Shown here one piece after another: positions 23,541 to 36,800 of a DNA stretch of 64,000 nucleotides. The notes under the pieces are model-generated. The model saw nothing but the letters and a program-made list of their open reading frames with translations, made no database searches and was not told where the DNA came from. A program made the position numbers and the translations under genes. The DNA is from Mesodorylaimus sp. YZB2_4. Taxonomy: Eukaryota; Nematoda; Enoplea; Dorylaimida; Dorylaimidae. The stretch lies in assembly GCA_030248295.1 (NCBI GenBank), contig JASANH010000821.1, forward strand, positions 124,001-188,000. The letters run 5' to 3'. Positions within the stretch are counted from its first letter, which is position 1. Every line of letters starts with the position of its first letter.

Positions 23541-23611
23541 CGCTTCGGCTGTAGCCCCTGATGTATCCGCTCTATGATGATGATTAGTGTGCTGCGGCGG
23601 AACTTCTTAGT

Positions 23612-24970
23612 GTACTCGATTTCTCATCAGCGGTTCGCGAGGTGCCAGCTTCCTCTGCCTTTGGCCAAGGTGACGATGTTTCTCGACTTCTCGGCGATTT
23701 CGCTTCCGCCATGCCTTCATCCACCGCTACAGCTACGACCTCTACGCTGTCCACGGTGTCAGCGTCAACAGATGCAGTGCCGCGACCTTCCGGTTCGCGA
23801 CTAGGTAGCACACTTGCTAAGGATGAGCGTCGGCTTGCTCAATTGATCGCTACTACCGTTGCTTCATCTGTCACTGTTGCAATGGGTCCTCTCTTAGCCT
23901 CGCTCAATGCTCTAGTGTTGACTCACCGTCAGCAGCAGAATCCGCCACCTATGCGACCGATTCCCGTGCAGCAACCTGTGCTTCCTCCATCACAACTTCA
24001 CTCGCAACCAGTGCAGCAGGCTAATGCGCCAGCAGCGCCTAGTCTACAGCTGCCTGGCTTCAAGCTGCCTTCCTTCGATGGCAATGTTTACACTCAGGAT
24101 CCTTTCGAATGGCTCACTCGCTACCATGTCTACGCCCTGGCCTCTAGTTGGCCTCAGGAGCGCATCATTTCGTTGGCTAGCATCTACATGGTTGGGGAAG
24201 CCCGAGCCAAGTGGCTTGAGGTCGCTGCTATTTCTAATCGCACGTGGGATCAGGTTAAGCACGCTTGGCTGGAAAGTCTTCTGCAGGGCGAGCGTAGCAT
24301 CTTAAAGACGCAGTTGTCGGCGTTGAGGCAAGATCAACGAACGGTCACAGCGTATAGTCTCGACTTCCAACGTCTAGCTCGTTTGGCATACTAAACCGCT
24401 GCGTTCCCTGATCTCCAGGACGGCGAACATGGGCTCATTGAGAAATACATCTCTGGGCTCACTGTCCAGTTGCAAATGGAGGTTTGTCGTGCTGATACGC
24501 AGCTCTTGTCAGCTGCGCGCACCATTGCGGAGCGCGCCGAGGCCACACTTTCTGTTTGTGGTGGCTCGTCTGGACACGCAGTCAATCGTGTTGTGTCGCA
24601 CCAGGTAGGTGGCGATCGCTCTTCCCGTCCTCAGGACAGGTATTGTGCATACTGTCGTCGCAACAATCATTGGACCAGGGACTGTTGGGCTAGAGACAAT
24701 CGTTCTTGTTCACGTACCGATCGCATTCCACGGCACAGTCGTGATGAGCGTCAGGATCGGTCTAGCTCATTTCGTCCTTCGGCTCAGGCCTATGTGAGTG
24801 TCGCAGTCGGAATCAAACTCCTCGACCGCGCTCCCGTGTGCAACTTGCACAGAATACAGATGGTATGTCTCAGGAGGCCTGCTCTTCTACTCAGCAGCCC
24901 ACCACGCATCCAACTCAGCCAGCATCGACTTCAGCTTCGCATGCGTCATATGCTGTGCATGACATGGTGA
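23612..24970 (+). pseudogene. gypsy gag, interrupted by a stop
   Basis: The frame opens after a TAG near 23592 and has no obvious own ATG before 23642 (an alternative codon there). It has a Ser/Thr- and Pro/Gln-rich N-terminal part, then a Retrotrans_gag core (LPSFDGNVYTQDPFEWLTRY, MVGEARAKWLE, TVTAYSLDFQRLARLAY). A TAA at 24392 interrupts it; the same frame continues with AAFPDLQDGEHGLIEKYISG and a CX2CX4HX4C zinc knuckle (CAYCRRNNHWTRDC) at about 24646-24687. The frame ends at 24970. Gag forms the virus-like particle and the knuckle binds RNA. Confidence 0.85.
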
Positions 24971-25061
24971 ATACGCCTGTCGTGCTTGCTGGTGAGATGA
25001 CACCCTCGTTCTCGGACATATTCACGGCGGACCACATCCGCTCTAACCCGACTCTAGGGCG

Positions 25062-27464
25062 AAAATCGGGTCGCGCTTTGTGCGGGGCACTTTGAATGCT
25101 ATTCCCGCTGCCATGTTGCTCGACTATGGTGCCACACTCTCGCTCATCAGTTAGCCCATGTTTGACAAACTGGGGAAATCTGTGCAGTTACGACCCACGA
25201 CTGCACGATCCGTTACTGTCAGCAACACGCCCATGCGGTTGCTAGGCGAGTGCGAAGTCGAACTCAGTATTGGTACTATCATGCAAAAGCATGTTTTCGC
25301 AGTTGATCAGGACATGCAATTGCCTGTTCTCTTGGGTATGGATTTTTGTGAAGATCCAGCCGGCACTACAGATCTTCTCAAGTATCTGCTTGATGTGGCT
25401 CAGCAACATCGACAAGGAGGGCTAGTTGCTGTCACTCAGGATCTGGTGTGTAAAGTCATGCTGACTGAGTCGCTCACAATTCCACCACGTTGTCAGATCT
25501 TGGTGGATGCTTGTGTCGATGGTGCGCCGATGATGACTACTGGTCTCATCGAGCCCAATGCTGCGTTTCAAGATCGTTGTTCTCTTCTCGTTGCGCACTC
25601 GCTGGTCACACCCGATGCGCTTGGACACATTCCACTATTGCTTGCTAATGTGACCATTGAGGAAAAGGTCGTTCCTGCTCAAATGCATCTTGACACCTAT
25701 GCTCCTTACGTTGCGTCGCAGTCTCTCTATCTTGGTGTTCACCACGTGTTGGACCAAGGGCAGTCTCTGCAATCTGCGCTAGATTCATTGACGAAGTTGG
25801 ACTGGACCAAATCCGCAGCTTCGCCCGAGCAAAAGGAGCGTTTGCTTGCTGTGCTTCGTCAGCACAAAGACGTCTTTGCTCGTGATGAAAATGATCAGGG
25901 TTGTACTCCTCTTCTTGAGCATAAGATTGAGTTGTCTGGTAAAGCTCCTCCTCGAATCCCAGCGCGTCGCTTACCTGAAGTTGTAAAGGCTGAAGTGCAG
26001 CGCCAACTTGGCGTGATGCAGGCCAATAAATGGATAGTGCCTTCATGCAGCCCTGTTTCGGCGCCCATTGTCGTCGTCCCTAAAAAAGGTGCTCCTTTCG
26101 GCTTTGCTGCCGCCACTCGTATTTGCGTTGATTTCCGCGCTTTGAATGCAGTCACTAAGCCTGATCTTTTTCCGATGCCACGTATCGATGAGGCGCTCGA
26201 TGCCCTTGGTGGTTCAAAATGGTTCTCCAGTTTGGATTTGCAGAGTGGGTTTTGGCAAATTCCCTTGGCACCCGAGTCGCAAGAACTGACTGCTTTCTCC
26301 ACACTGGGTCAGCAATGGCAGTTTACTGTCATGCCCTTCGGATTGCGTAATGCAAGTGCAACTGCTCAACGGTTGCTGCAGATGATTCTCTCTGGTCTCC
26401 ATTGGACTCAGGCTCTCGTCTACATTGACGACATTCTGATCTACTCGAAAAGCTTTGATGAGCATCTAGTTCATGTGGCTAACGTGCTACAGCGGCTGCG
26501 CGCCGCCCAACTGAAACTCAAGCCGTCGAAATGTCATTTTGCGATGTCGGAGGTGTTGTTTGTAGGTCACATAGTGACCGCAGAAGGAGTTCGTGTGGAT
26601 CCTGCTAAAGTGGATGCTGTCGTGAGGTATCCGACCCCCACTACGCAGAAGGACTTGCATACATTTATCGGCATGGTCACTTTCCTCCATGGCTACGTTC
26701 ATCATATCGCGACTATCGCCGCTCCGCCATACGATCTGCTAAAACAAGATGCAGACTTCGTCTGGAGCAGTCTCCACGAGGATGCTTTTCTCGCCTTGAA
26801 GCATGCTTTGACTTCAGCTCCCGTGTTGAGATATCCTGACTTCAAACAACAGTTTATCCTCCAGACTGATGCCTCGACAGGTATTGGTGGTGTTTCGTAT
26901 CAAGCCTGCGGAGATCGTAAACATGTGATTGCCTATGCGTCACGAAAGCTGGCGAAAGCTGAACGAAACTATTCTGCCCTCGAGCTAGAGGCACTCGCCA
27001 TCGTTGAGCTCGTCAGGCATTTTCGCCCGTATCTGTATGGGGTGAAGTTTCTCCTTCGAACTGACCACCAGCCTCTGAAGTGGATTTTCACTCAGAAAGA
27101 GCCTACTGGTCGGTTAGCTCGTTGGGTTTATATTCTATCCGAATATTCGTTTGACATTGAGCATGTACCAGGTAAATTAAATACCATGGCTGATGCTTTA
27201 TCGCGCCATCCTGCTTGCCATGTATGCCAGCCGCATACCCTCGTTGGCCATGTGCAGCAGGATACCATGCTCTCACATGACTCGCTAAAAGCTGCTCAGC
27301 GCGCAGATCCTCTTTGGCAACCTTTCATTGCGTACATGGAGCTCGGTCGCAAGGCATTATCTGTGCCAGCTGCTGAAGCGCGCAAGTTTCGACTCATGTC
27401 TGATCATTACGAGTTGTCATCGTTTGCTCCTGCATCTTCCACGGGGCAAGTCGAAACGTCGTGA
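25062..27464 (+). pseudogene. gypsy pol: protease, reverse transcriptase, RNase H
   Basis: The protease core at 25083-25151 reads GTLNAIPAAMLLDYGATLSL; the usual D-S/T-G triad is D-Y-G, and a TAG at 25152 follows. The frame then stays open for 768 codons. RT signatures are ARRLPEVVKAEVQRQL, RICVDFRALNAVT, SLDLQSGFWQIPLA, FTVMPFGLRNASATAQR and the catalytic YIDDIL at about 26422. A TFIGMVTFLHGYVHHI connection follows, then RNase H (LQTDASTGIGGVSYQ, YSALELEALAIVELVRHFRP, RTDHQPLKWIF, ADALSRHP). The frame is lost at 27464 and continues one frame over into integrase. RT/RNase H residues look intact although the element as a whole is not. Confidence 0.92.
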
Positions 27465-28702
27465 GTGCTCGACTCAACTCGTCATTCCTGCCTCGTTTAC
27501 TCGACTGGTCTTCGATGCTTGTCATGCTGATGCATTGGCTGGTCATCTTGGTTTTTCCAAGACTTTCGCTCGGATTCGAAAACAGTATTATTGGCATCAG
27601 ATGCATCGTGAGATCTATGCATGGTCCAAGGGATGTTAATCCTGTGCTCGCAACAAGTCGTATGAAACTCCGCTCAAGGCGCCACTGAAGCCTTTGTGCG
27701 TTGAGAACCCCTTCGAAGTGATCGGCATTGATACAATGGGTCCCTTGCCACGATCCAAAGCGGTTAACGTGCATATTGTGATCGTCGCTGACTACTTGAC
27801 CAAGTATATCGAAGCCTTCGCTGTTCCCAACATTACGGCAGACACCATTGCCCAGTTGCTACGAATGCCGCGACATTCTTCGGATGTATGTTGACCAGAG
27901 TAAGCAGGATGATTGGGACGCCTTCATTCCGTTTGCTCGCTTCGCATACAATACCGCCGTCCACGATTCGACTGGCGAGACTCCTTTCTATTTGATGCAT
28001 GGTTTTTACGCGAATTAGACTCTGGATGTTGCTCTACGTGAGGAGGCGTACCGATTCGAAACACCTGCAGATTACAGGGAGTATGTTGTCTCCAACTTGG
28101 AGCGCGCGCGTGCTTTGGCTTTCGACAACATTGTACGTATCCAAGAGCAGCGTACTGCTCGGCAAGATCCCTTGAATGGTTCTGGTTTGCGTCTGGGAGA
28201 TCAAGTGATGTACAGACGCATGCACACACCTGTTGGAAAATCACCAAAGTTTTTGGGCGACCGTTTGGGTCCCTATCGCATAGTTGACGTCATATCTCCC
28301 CAGAATGTGGTCATTCGACCTGTAGCTGGGTTAGGCGAAGATGATAAGCGTGCCCATGTCTCGCAGTTGAAGTTCTTTCAGCCTGTAGTTTCGAAGGCAT
28401 TGACCCCTAGGCCAAAGTTGTTAAAAATTGGTGATGTGGTCTGGGCCAAGGTCAAGTACCAACCTTACTGGCCAGCCGCAATCGTTGACCCTTCGACCCT
28501 TTCGCTTCGAAAACCTTTAGCCTCGAACCAGTTACTGGTTCAGTTTTTTGAAAAATCTGGTCTGGATATTGTTGCTCGAGACAGTGTTTTCGATTTTTTG
28601 TCATATCGTCAAGAGTTCACCTCGAATGCTTGTGGGTTACAGCGTGCGCTTAAGAAAGTCTTTTATCTTGCGACGGTGAATAAACTATTGAATGGAAATT
28701 GA
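27440..28702 (+). pseudogene. gypsy integrase with internal deletion and C-terminal PWWP-like domain
   Basis: The zinc-binding N-terminus is recognisable (HADALAGHLGFSKTFARIRK, YYWHQM, then GC, a TAA at 27637-27639, SCARNK). The core has the first Asp in FEVIGIDTMGPLPRSK, followed by DYLTKYIEAFAVPNITADTI. Sequence then jumps at about 27864 from AQLL to LRMYVDQSKQDDWDAFIPFA (one frame over), which is normally downstream of the catalytic Glu; so the second Asp and the Glu are missing, apparently about 80 codons deleted. Another TAG is at 28016-28018. From 28097 a 201-codon frame gives the integrase tail (LRLGDQVMYRR, FLGDRLGPYRIVDVISPQNV) and then, from about 28421, LKIGDVVWAKVKYQPYWPAA, VQFFEKSGLDIVARD, which fits PWWP (G-D-x-V-W-A-K-V, P-Y-W-P, then V-x-F-F). 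PWWP domains bind DNA and methylated histone H3K36, so this could target integration. Confidence 0.85.
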
Positions 28703-31550: not shown

Positions 31551-31831
31551 TTATGGGGAGGGGAGAGTCAGTCGAGCATTGAGGGTCCTGAATTTCTTGC
31601 TTGGGACGCTTGGTTGTTTCTTACCTGGCCTTACGTCAGCAAGGCGCCGCTCTGTCGCTGTTATTGTTTGCATGTCTAAAGGGGAAGCAGGCGGCACTTC
31701 CATAGTCGGCGGTGGCGGCGGTGGCGGCGGTGGCGGCGGTGGCGGCGGTGGCGGCGGTGGCGGCGGTGGCGGCGGTGGCGGCGGTGGCGGCGGTGACGGC
31801 GGCGGTGGCGGCGGTGGCGGCGGTGGCGGCG

Positions 31832-31862
<31 letters not shown>

Positions 31863-33115
31863 TGGTGGTGGAGGAGGTGGTGGAGGAGGAGGGGGCGGTG
31901 GTGGAGCTGGCGCTGCTGCAGCAGCTGCTGTACATGTTGAAGCTGAAAAAGCGCAGAGTGCGATTAGGACCAGACCAATGCGACGCAGCATTTAAACTCC
32001 ACATACCGCATAATCCAGATGCTGTGCATTTTCCCGGACATGAACCACATCGACTACCGAATGTGTAAGGATTGTGACCTCGAATATTGCCCCTGTATGG
32101 CGCATGCAAGCTATACCTCCGCATGTATCATGCTAATTATCGATAGCTTACGTGGGTCCATAATTGCAAACAACAATTTGTCCCTTCGTTATGCCGCCTC
32201 CACTAGCGATGGAAGTACAGTGAGCGGCAGCACAGCCAACAGCGCACGTATCAGCCCACACGACCTGGAACACAGTCAAAAACTGTCATATCTCATTAGC
32301 GAAAGTGAGAAGGAACCTGTTTGGCTCACTTGAGTGTAATGGCCACAATTGGTGAAACTACCCGTGCGGCACTGTATGCTTCCAAAATCCCACAATGGCT
32401 TCTCATTATAAAAGCTCAGAACAATGCTTGCCAAATCGTCCCGTAACACAGCCTCGTTACTCCACCAGATAGCTTCGCCCACCCGATCGTAGCCGTACTT
32501 GTCTCGACGGCTGTAATTCGGTGTGTGCTTAGCTGCGCAGTTACCAGCCCAACTTCTTGCCATGTAAGCCAGATTCGAATCCCACACCTGCGTTTCAAGT
32601 GGCACGGAATCACTTTGAACTCAAAAATGGAGTACCTACTTACCATTTCCTGCATATCTGAAGCTGGTTCTTTAGCTCTAAGTCGATTATGTTCATTGAC
32701 AATCATTGCCTGCTGACTGGGACTGAAGTCGTAGTAGCGCAGCACTACAACAAGTCGTTCAAGGTTATCTTCTTTCTTCAGCGTTTCAAATTAGGACTGT
32801 CTGCCGAATGAAACTTTTGTACGCACCTTGTCAAATTGCATCTTTCAATCTGACGTCAATCTGCATAAATTCAAACCAGGTGGTGTCCCCGCCAGTGTTA
32901 TTCCAACAGTGCCCCTTTCACTCCTATGTTGTGCCTGAGTCCTCTTGAGACCCACGCCAGTGGACTAAGGCCCCAAGGTCCATGAGGGCCTAAAGGATTT
33001 TGCCGGTCTACTGTATGTTGTGTCATCAAGAGCGCCGCGACTTACCATCCCCCTCAGCCCACTGTCCGTTCAGGGCGCACATAAGCATCGCAACGAGGAC
33101 CCGCACCACTTCCAT
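31551..33115 (-). CDS. Secreted CAP/SCP-family protein with a polyproline C-terminal tail
   Basis: Hand-built six-exon model: 33115-33046, 32744-32644, 32587-32330, 32264-32152, 32092-32007, 31942-31551 (1020 nt, 339 residues). All donors start GT(A/G)(A/T)G and all phases agree (1, 0, 0, 2, 1). Exon 1 is a signal peptide (MEVVRVLVAMLMCAL, GQWA). The CAP fold follows: IVNEHNRLRAKEPASDMQEM, VWDSNLAYMARSWAGNCAAK, VGEAIWWSN, SFYNEKPLWDF, NCGHYTQ joined by splicing to VVWADTCAVGCAAAHC, then IVVCNYGPTGN. A Cys-rich hinge (SRCGSCPGKCTASGLC) precedes a tail of Ala then about 70 Pro encoded by a GGC/GGT repeat, ending in a basic stretch. CAP proteins are extracellular; in nematodes they include secreted ASP/VAL proteins. 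The tail is unusual. It ends at a TAA at 31551-31553. RNA data could move the last exon. Confidence 0.82.
31705..31905. repeat. GGC/GGT microsatellite
   Basis: About 200 bp of GGCGGTGGC-type units, with one GAC interruption near 31796 and GGT/GGA variants at the right end. On the minus strand it encodes the polyproline tail of the CAP protein. It is also open as poly-Gly on the + strand, which I regard as a by-product. Confidence 0.9.
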
Positions 33116-33827: not shown

Positions 33828-36800
33828 ATGGTTTCTAGGCTTATTATTTTTGGCATTTTCAGTTTTCTTGTATCCCTTTCCTGTGCGTCAGTTCGTGTCC
33901 CTAGCACTGATAAAACCAGAGTGCCATTTATTGCTTGGGAACATTACTTGCAAGAATGTGGAGCTGAGGTCCCCCATCAGTGCTCCGGATGTGAGTAAAC
34001 ACCGTTTTAATCGTTATCAAGCGATTTTGCCATGTGATATTTTCAGCAAAGAAAGCATTGGGGCAATCTTGCATGTTCGACAGTGATTGCGTGCCACCAG
34101 CAGTTTGCCAGAAGCTGAAATGTCAATGTATGAAGGGATATGTGGCTTACAAAGAAAGATGCGTGAGAGGTACGACATGCCCCGATTATGCCTGATGGGA
34201 CGATTCATTCGATCAATCTGTTTGACCTAATCTGTGAAATCACTGTGTTCTCAGTCAGTGACTGACTGATGATCATCTCACTCTTTAACGCCTAAAAATT
34301 CCTGGTGACGCGTGCTAGCTGTAAATTTTCCGCTTTCTAGCACCAACCCTGGATCAGCAGTGCATCGACGGTCGGTGCGCTCCTCCATTGATTTGTACAA
34401 GACGTGACATTTGCGAATGTCCTCGGACCATGGAAAGGCTCGAGAATGGGTGTGATGCCAGTAAGCAAAAACGAACTCCCATCACGTCGGGTGCGAAAAA
34501 GAGTTTGACTCTTAGGATGTCAGTGGGATCATATACTCGTCGATGGTGAATGTCTGCCAAGTATGTACCGACCAATTTAGTCTGTCAGAAACTTGAAAAT
34601 TTCAAACTTCAAAAAGTAGACAAAAAAGTGGCTGTTTCAGTTGTTCGTCTCGGTCAAGTGTGCAAAGCCAGTCTTCAGTGCAATACCGCCTACGCCTACT
34701 GCGGCGATGATGGCAAATGCCAATGTGTGCCTGGAACGAGGCAGGCGGGAGACAAATGTGAAGCCAGTAGGCCTGTCTTGATTTCAATGTTTCGTATTTT
34801 TTTCCAAATCAACAAGTTTGTTGTGACACGTTTGTTTAGATCCGCTTTGCCCTGATGGAACGACTCCCCTGAGGTCACGCTCGACGGACTACGTCAAATG
34901 TAATGGTCAAACATGTCCCGCAAATCAACTACCGTTTATACCCCCACGCCTAAAACTGGACTCGTGCCCTGACGGATACTACTGCATTTTTCCATCTTAT
35001 CAGGATGCTGATGGATTTTGTTGCAGAGAAAAACCCTATTGTCCCATGGGAGAGCCTCTAGTAGAAAAGAACTGCATTAATCCACGCAGCGAAGCCGAAC
35101 GATGCCCTCTCGAGACTCATCATTGCTATGCAGCCACCCGTGGAACCTACTGCTGCCCACTGCCATGCCCCTCGTTGGGACTCAGAGCCTCAGTGGTTGT
35201 AGAAAATGGTCAATGTTTTGAGCGGAGTGCACTGAGAGAACGGTGCAACGTGACTGCCCAGTGCCCTCGACCCGCTCAATGCATCAATGCCACGTGCGAG
35301 TGCCCCGAAGGGTTCAAGTATCAGGTGGGGCCTCTGGGAGAGAAATGTCAAAAGCAATGTCAGCCGGGTAAAGTGCTGGTTGGAGCCGAGTGTCTGGAGA
35401 TGGCACTGCCCGGAGCCAAGTGCACGAACAGCGCTCAATGCACGGCTGGTACAAAATGTGTGGCTGGAATATGCGACTGCCCGTGTGGAACAGTTTCTTA
35501 CAATGGGCTTTGTATTGATGGTAAGTCAGCCATGATGGCATCAGTGAAACTATCAAATATGATGCACATAGGGCATACCTCATGCTTTTGTATCCAGGCG
35601 AGATTGACTGTACCGCGATGTGAATGAAAAAGCAGAAAAATAATCGCCCATTTCCTTTTCCATTTTTATCCTCCATTTTAGTCCCAGAATGCCCAAATTT
35701 TGGCAATGGTGTCTACGATCCCATCAAGACCAAACAGGGCACATTGCTTGAGTGCTCACCAAATATCTTCAATCCGAACTCCCCTCCACCATGTCCAGCT
35801 AAAACATTTTGCCATCGCGCCTTGATCTATTCAGGCGGCATATGCTGCCCGCTTCCAGGTATCTCACCAAACTCGTTTTCCTGTTTCCAAATGACATCAT
35901 AATCATTTTCAGAGCCCATTTGTCAAAACGGTCGACCACCTCCTCGTGGTCGCGATAATGAGCCAATTATTTGTGATTTTGCTGGCAATTCGTCCTCGAC
36001 TGTCTTCTGTCCACGAACGCTCTTCTGTTATGATTACACAAGTGTCATTTTGCCCCAACTTGCTCAGAATGCTGGTCGGCGGGGTGTTTGTTGCCCCATG
36101 GATCCGAGACTCTCCACCAGATACGATTACTATAATCCTCAACAACAGCAACAGTGGTCACAGCCATCTTTGCTTCAGTCCTCCGATACAGTAGGTAGGT
36201 ACCTATGACTTGCCGCATCAAGTCATCTCATCAAAAGCTTAGAAACTGGAACCAGTCTATAAGAACAGGCGTATTCTGCGAATCCTTGTTTGTATCCTCT
36301 CATAACCCCAGTCAGATCACTTTACAGTCATATAACTCACTGAGGTACCTACATTTCTGGTAGTGAAACTGCTCCTGACGCGCTATTGCTAACGCGACTT
36401 TTACAAATATCCACGGGTACGTACTCGTCTTCAACCGATCGCCTTGGTCATCATCCCGGTGATCATGGGTGCTTGCAGTGTTAAACCCACATCGATGTGC
36501 CGACTACAGTGATACGGGTGTTGATAAAGATAGGCAAGTCTGAGACGTAGTGGGCGCATGTCAGAAGATATGTGCATTTTACTCACCCACTTTTTGATTT
36601 TTTCCGTAATTTCGTCCTTCCTTTTAAATTTTCATTATCTCCAGGAAAGTGCCTATTACGGACTACATGACAGGATGGATACCGGGTCGGAGCACTCTGT
36701 AATAATTGTATAGCTTGAGCTAATAAGCAAGGAATTGCAGTGTATTTTGGTGTACATTGTTGCATTATCGATCTTACACATTGGTACTCACACTCAGACT

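Follow-up and report, generated by a model that had tools for sequence, protein, structure and literature searches.

A PWWP domain fused to the integrase C-terminus in many Ty3/gypsy retrotransposon families of the nematode Mesodorylaimus sp. YZB2_4

Many families of long terminal repeat (LTR) retrotransposons of the Ty3/gypsy type in the nematode Mesodorylaimus sp. YZB2_4 carry a PWWP domain in frame at the C-terminus of their integrase. The starting point is a stretch of 64,000 nucleotides, here called the window (assembly GCA_030248295.1, contig JASANH010000821.1, positions 124,001 to 188,000 of the forward strand). In the window, the open frame at 28019–28702 holds an integrase tail, behind which lies a match to the Pfam PWWP model (PF00855; E value 2.7e-12). 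An initial annotation, made from the sequence alone, had read this piece as a PWWP-like domain fused to a Ty3/gypsy integrase and had suggested a profile search; the domain scores 44.6 and 47.4 bits against a curated cut-off of 25.6, and the reading stands. Structure prediction gives the window domain the barrel and helices of a PWWP, with a fold resembling the PWWPs of DNMT3, HDGF, BRPF and LEDGF. A chromodomain in place of the PWWP was considered and rejected, since PF00385 matched neither the window frame nor any of the 10 + 6 sister frames scanned.

The fusion recurs many times in the genome assembly, which comprises 145 megabases in 1067 contigs. The 227-residue tail of the window frame, used as a query, gave at least 121 matches, and the Pfam PWWP model found at least 146 places, all of them above its cut-off. 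The copies were grouped by eye in this analysis into families lettered A–K. Surrounding DNA was examined at 81 of the PWWP places, some of which had been chosen for their integrase tail, and in 75 of these an integrase match lies on the same strand no more than 1.6 kb upstream; the integrase profile used here was built from ten of the PWWP families. With loci chosen by their integrase left out, integrase is upstream in 29 of the 30 best PWWP places (L031–L060). It is also upstream in 16 of 20 places picked as unlike the first families (L068–L087). The six places that lack it are a fragment of family E (L044), two fragments of family I (L080 and L082), C42, L083 and L085. At C42 the upstream part falls outside the stretch examined, and an rve match is listed 751 bases upstream. 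L083 and L085, which contain short stretches 60–65% identical to the window PWWP, are possibly host genes with PWWP exons and no integrase.

The domains also occur together in unbroken frames. Nine families supply ten frames in which zinc finger, rve and PWWP are joined without interruption. In families A, B, D, E, F and G, six of six frames scored above the Pfam cut-offs for PF17921, PF00665 and the PWWP. In a second set, four of ten frames (one G copy, G3, H and I) contained zinc finger, rve and PWWP, and in the remaining six one or both integrase domains were below the cut-off or absent from the scanned stretch. When ten families are aligned, the integrase core and the GPY part (the latter read by eye) align throughout and the W..K..P of the PWWP is invariant, while the linker ahead of the PWWP ranges from about 12 to more than 100 residues. 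The spacing is likewise regular: of the best 150 places with an integrase zinc finger, 50 are followed on their own strand by a PWWP place no more than 3 kb downstream, and in 48 of these 50 the distance between the two is 922–1071 bases.

The PWWP lies inside the LTR-bounded element. Within families, the likeness between copies extends beyond the PWWP stop codon and breaks off abruptly, at about 674 (B), 905 (E), 1690 (D) and 1702 (F) bases after the PWWP start. Paired LTRs were found in four of the seven copies tried, with identities of 96.9–100%: 199 bp and 100% in C419 (family B), 191 bp and 96.9% in C48 (E), 197 bp and 98.5% in C434 (A), and 166 bp and 98.8% in C50 (D). The LTR ends are TGT..ACA in C419, C434 and C50, and exact 4-bp target duplications flank two of the copies (AGTG at C419 and ACTG at C50). 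The primer-binding sequence TGGCGAGCTTGGCAGG is common to families A and B (C434 and C419), and TGGTGCGTCGGCCC is common to families D and E (C50 and C48). In a search for the primer transfer RNA (tRNA), the complement of the A/B site, 15 bases long, was met 35 times in the genome and never in a reversed control; a genome search with the D/E pattern plus a tRNA-like extension gave no match. The fusion is present as unbroken frames and in copies with paired LTRs, where the initial annotation had proposed to look for it in intact elements, and the findings that it had named as fatal to its reading (no PWWP match or fold, sister copies without the domain, host sequence beside the insertion) were not encountered.

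Families A and F have an extra frame of approximately 300 residues between the PWWP stop and the 3' end (L002:2333–3226, plus strand; L052:391–1305, minus strand). No Pfam model matches it, sister copies keep it open in part, and by eye it does not look like an envelope gene.

Selection on the PWWP was assessed by pairwise ratios of nonsynonymous to synonymous divergence (dN/dS; Nei-Gojobori method) in nine pairs. In the family B pair L014/L009 the ratio is 0.08 for the PWWP, 0.08 for the integrase and 0.20 for the linker; in the family G pair L057/L060 the respective values are 0.03, 0.13 and 1.01. The PWWP values for D/E (0.12) and G/G2 (0.18) rest on synonymous distances above 2. In several pairs the linker is less constrained than the PWWP and the integrase. 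In the readable pairs, these ratios indicate that purifying selection holds the PWWP as strictly as the integrase itself. The suggestion that a Ty3/gypsy lineage bears the fusion is therefore borne out by the many copies and families, by the position inside an LTR-bounded unit and, for the measurable pairs, by the signature of purifying selection.

The fusion also exists outside this assembly, where it is either rare or poorly covered. Used as a query against 5.8 billion proteins, the window tail gave one match, P0001, which consists of an integrase tail plus a PWWP. The best match of the window reverse transcriptase (RT) frame, P0002, is encoded on a JGI contig of 3688 bases and is a single protein of 1158 residues with RT, RNase H, zinc finger, rve and PWWP. 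A scan of viral contigs with P0001 found no relative.

What the domain could read was approached through its aromatic cage. The methyl-lysine cage positions, which we take to be Tyr18, Trp21 and Phe44 of LEDGF, were assigned in each family from our alignment to LEDGF. G and G2 keep all three aromatics (Phe/Trp/Phe), and the Trp at the second position is retained in most families. Judged from these residues, G and G2 could plausibly read methylated histone H3 lysine 36 (H3K36); for A, the family of the window copy, such reading is doubtful. As the first cage position is changed in A–F, H and J, and the second also in B and I, these families likely rely on DNA or on another mark.

Several results weigh against the view of a group of elements whose PWWP tail serves as a chromatin tether. 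The full three-aromatic cage is confined to G and G2: the residues are Gln/Trp/Phe in A and J, His/Trp/Phe in C (with Leu at the third position in L026) and H, Ile/Trp/Phe in D, Val/Trp/Phe in E, Leu/Trp/Phe in F, His/Leu/Phe in B, Phe/Ala/Phe in I and Tyr/Trp/Leu in G3. The dN/dS values are saturated or nearly so in seven of the nine pairs, including five saturated PWWP values. No LTR pair was found in the stretches examined at C42, C13 and C40, three of the seven copies tried, and a clean target duplication is absent at C434 (ATAT/GTAT) and at C48. P0002 is the only PWWP bearer among the 120 matches listed in the search with the RT frame, and again among the 120 listed in a profile search, of which six carry a chromodomain. 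Finally, at 100 of the best 150 zinc-finger places no PWWP place lies within 3 kb. Part of these belong to PWWP families and have decayed or been cut, because their integrase tails match the tail search (C432, C346 and C17, for example). The DNA of eight of the 100 (L094–L101) was examined and five of these gypsy integrases were scanned; each has a zinc finger or rve, and none has a PWWP at E values up to 0.1. Hence some of the gypsy groups in this genome have the domain and others do not.

Three of the gypsy integrases without a PWWP (L095, L096 and L098) have long low-complexity tails after the C-terminal part, rich in Pro, Ser, Thr and acidic residues. Separately, rve matches were seen in open frames of about 2900 residues, for example at C78:717–1013, C123:321035–321331 and C435:61835–62131, the first of which lies approximately 1 kb or less from a contig end.

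The known ligands of PWWP domains are nucleosomal DNA and histone tails that carry methyl groups. By analogy, the PWWP tail probably tethers the integrase to nucleosomes and thereby biases where new copies insert. Here, the mature integrase would keep its PWWP, which would bind nucleosomal DNA together with a histone tail, as the PWWPs of LEDGF, HDGF and DNMT3 do, so that one protein may do the job that LEDGF/p75 and lentiviral integrase share between two. For G and G2 the likeliest mark would be H3K36 methylation. According to excerpts of PMC8149907, the LEDGF PWWP binds H3K36me3 while the opposite end of the protein binds lentiviral integrase, and reader domains joined to the LEDGF integrase-binding domain redirect integration of human immunodeficiency virus. 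A wider version, which we consider somewhat improbable as a whole, is a Ty3/gypsy radiation whose own PWWP picks H3K36-methylated, transcribed chromatin, with cages since re-tuned to different marks so that families partition the genome by chromatin state. The domain might instead serve the integrase in ways that have nothing to do with site choice, by binding DNA in general, by keeping the protein in the nucleus or by assisting intasome assembly. The altered first cage aromatic in A–F, H and J would fit such a role, as would the net charge of the PWWP pieces (0 to +9) and the fact that several PWWP structures resembling the predicted fold are DNA complexes (HRP3, BRPF2, and Shuguo with single-stranded DNA). 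For a tail that only had to be sticky, however, there would be no call for a complete PWWP barrel with so low a dN/dS. The Trp at the second cage position is also retained in most families, and we regard this explanation as unlikely. Tethering to nucleosomes remains the preferred account.

A further question is whether PWWP tails of this kind arose once, and whether they belong to the elements at all. Chance read-through from the insertion into part of a neighbouring host gene, as the origin of the PWWP, would agree with the window copy, in which no LTR stands between the integrase and the point where the frame ends. It is refuted by the recurrence of the PWWP behind integrase at nearly all examined places, by the near-constant distance from the zinc finger and by the position inside LTR-bounded units, and we give it practically no credence. 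Capture of the domain independently by several lineages, as opposed to one capture followed by loss or divergence, is a serious contender that we place just below an even chance. The integrase tree on which this bears has 93 rows (23 chosen loci, and 70 database rows out of an eligible 183), the clade tests used 64 rows without L084 (family K), L006, L060 and L009, and both the integrase and the RT trees were built without named representatives of the known clades. The 19 PWWP rows of the integrase tree require two changes of state, and a single clade of 14 PWWP rows, with family I removed, is rejected (p 0.039). The RT tree, a comparison suggested in the initial annotation, shows two groups: A, B and P0002 stand together, apart from E and G. 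The two distinct primer-binding sequences of A/B and D/E also favour several captures. Yet a single clade of all 15 PWWP rows is not rejected (p 0.349), the comparison rows were chosen by their likeness to the window RT or to PWWP-bearing integrases, and long branches are in play. No host donor gene of the PWWP, the source that the initial annotation had envisaged, was identified.

The window copy itself is a dead fragment of this PWWP–integrase group, a broken and truncated member of family A on the plus strand whose body spans 23597–28654 by blastn against the C434 sister copy. Three blocks match that copy, at 23597–24798 (94.6%), 26698–27860 (95.8%) and 27869–28654 (92.7%); the comparison does not include 24798–26698. 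The gene order is that of Ty3/gypsy, with gag, then RT and RNase H, then integrase pieces. The gag frame (23588–24394) matches Retrotrans_gag (PF03732, 3.3e-7), and the pol frame (25155–27464), with RT at about 26076–26576 and RNase H at about 26763–27146, matches PF00078 (1.1e-32), PF17917 (2.2e-36) and PF17919 (1.7e-32). A piece of the integrase core follows at 27640–27894, with 93% identity to the L002 copy over residues 1–74, and is followed by an internal deletion; approximately 178 bases of the L002 integrase are absent between 27860 and 27869. Scanned alone, this core piece has no Pfam match.

The C-terminal part of the integrase, with the GPY motif, occupies 28019–28420 as an open frame with 93% identity to L002; its Pfam matches to Integrase_p58_C and SH3_Tf2-1 are weak and below the cut-off. 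It runs in frame into the PWWP domain at 28421–28654, where the Pfam match covers about 28430–28627. Homology to three sister copies (L002, L003 and L006) stops at 28654, so the final codons and the stop codon of the frame, at 28655–28702, are flanking, non-element sequence. A search of the window with the family-A LTR from C434 gave no match. All these features are on the plus strand. The window also holds an array of 9-base repeats at 31653–31949, which encodes Gly/Ala/Pro-rich runs in several frames. Neighbouring the element are a CAP-domain frame at 32279–32620 (minus strand) and EB/lustrin-type cysteine-rich frames at 34827–36205 (plus strand). These EB and CAP domains agree with a nematode source, as do 26 genomic matches to the nematode-specific TTR-52 family, part of them clustered on C43; a search for SL1 RNA, another nematode mark, gave no match in the genome or in its controls.

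Chromodomain tails are the known case of a reader fused to the integrases of LTR retrotransposons, and in lentiviruses a PWWP steers integration by way of a separate host protein. The elements described here resemble chromoviruses in having a small chromatin reader of the Royal superfamily at the Ty3/gypsy integrase C-terminus, after the GPY/F part. They differ in that the reader is a PWWP, with no PF00385 match in the scanned frames, and in that chromodomain-bearing rows do not group with PWWP rows in the integrase tree. The CoDi-A elements, which likewise have a reader domain at the integrase end, are Ty1/copia elements with a chromodomain, here replaced by Ty3/gypsy with a PWWP; the excerpted text of PMC2774666 treats them as a separate lineage thought to have captured its chromodomain independently. 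LEDGF/p75 shares with our elements the link between a PWWP and an integrase, and chromatin delivery is predicted here as well. In LEDGF/p75, as described in the same excerpts of PMC8149907, the PWWP belongs to a host protein with its own domain for binding integrase, whereas here the connection is covalent and in one frame. In sequence and predicted fold the element domain is akin to the PWWPs of DNMT3A/B, the HDGF family, BRPF1-3, NSD2/3 and MSH6, yet those are host chromatin proteins and this is a retroelement integrase.

The initial annotation knew of no gypsy clade with this fusion, and full-text searches of open-licence PubMed Central papers turned up no description of an integrase–PWWP retrotransposon (subscription papers and preprints lie beyond that body of literature). 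One candidate for a prior description, PMC3978060, was set aside, as the portion of its text consulted deals with a host PWWP gene into which a DNA transposon has inserted. A reader-tailed integrase is known, and the PWWP as its reader is new relative to that literature. A natural integrase–PWWP fusion, present in many families of one genome and with varied cages, offers a ready series for learning how readers set integration sites.
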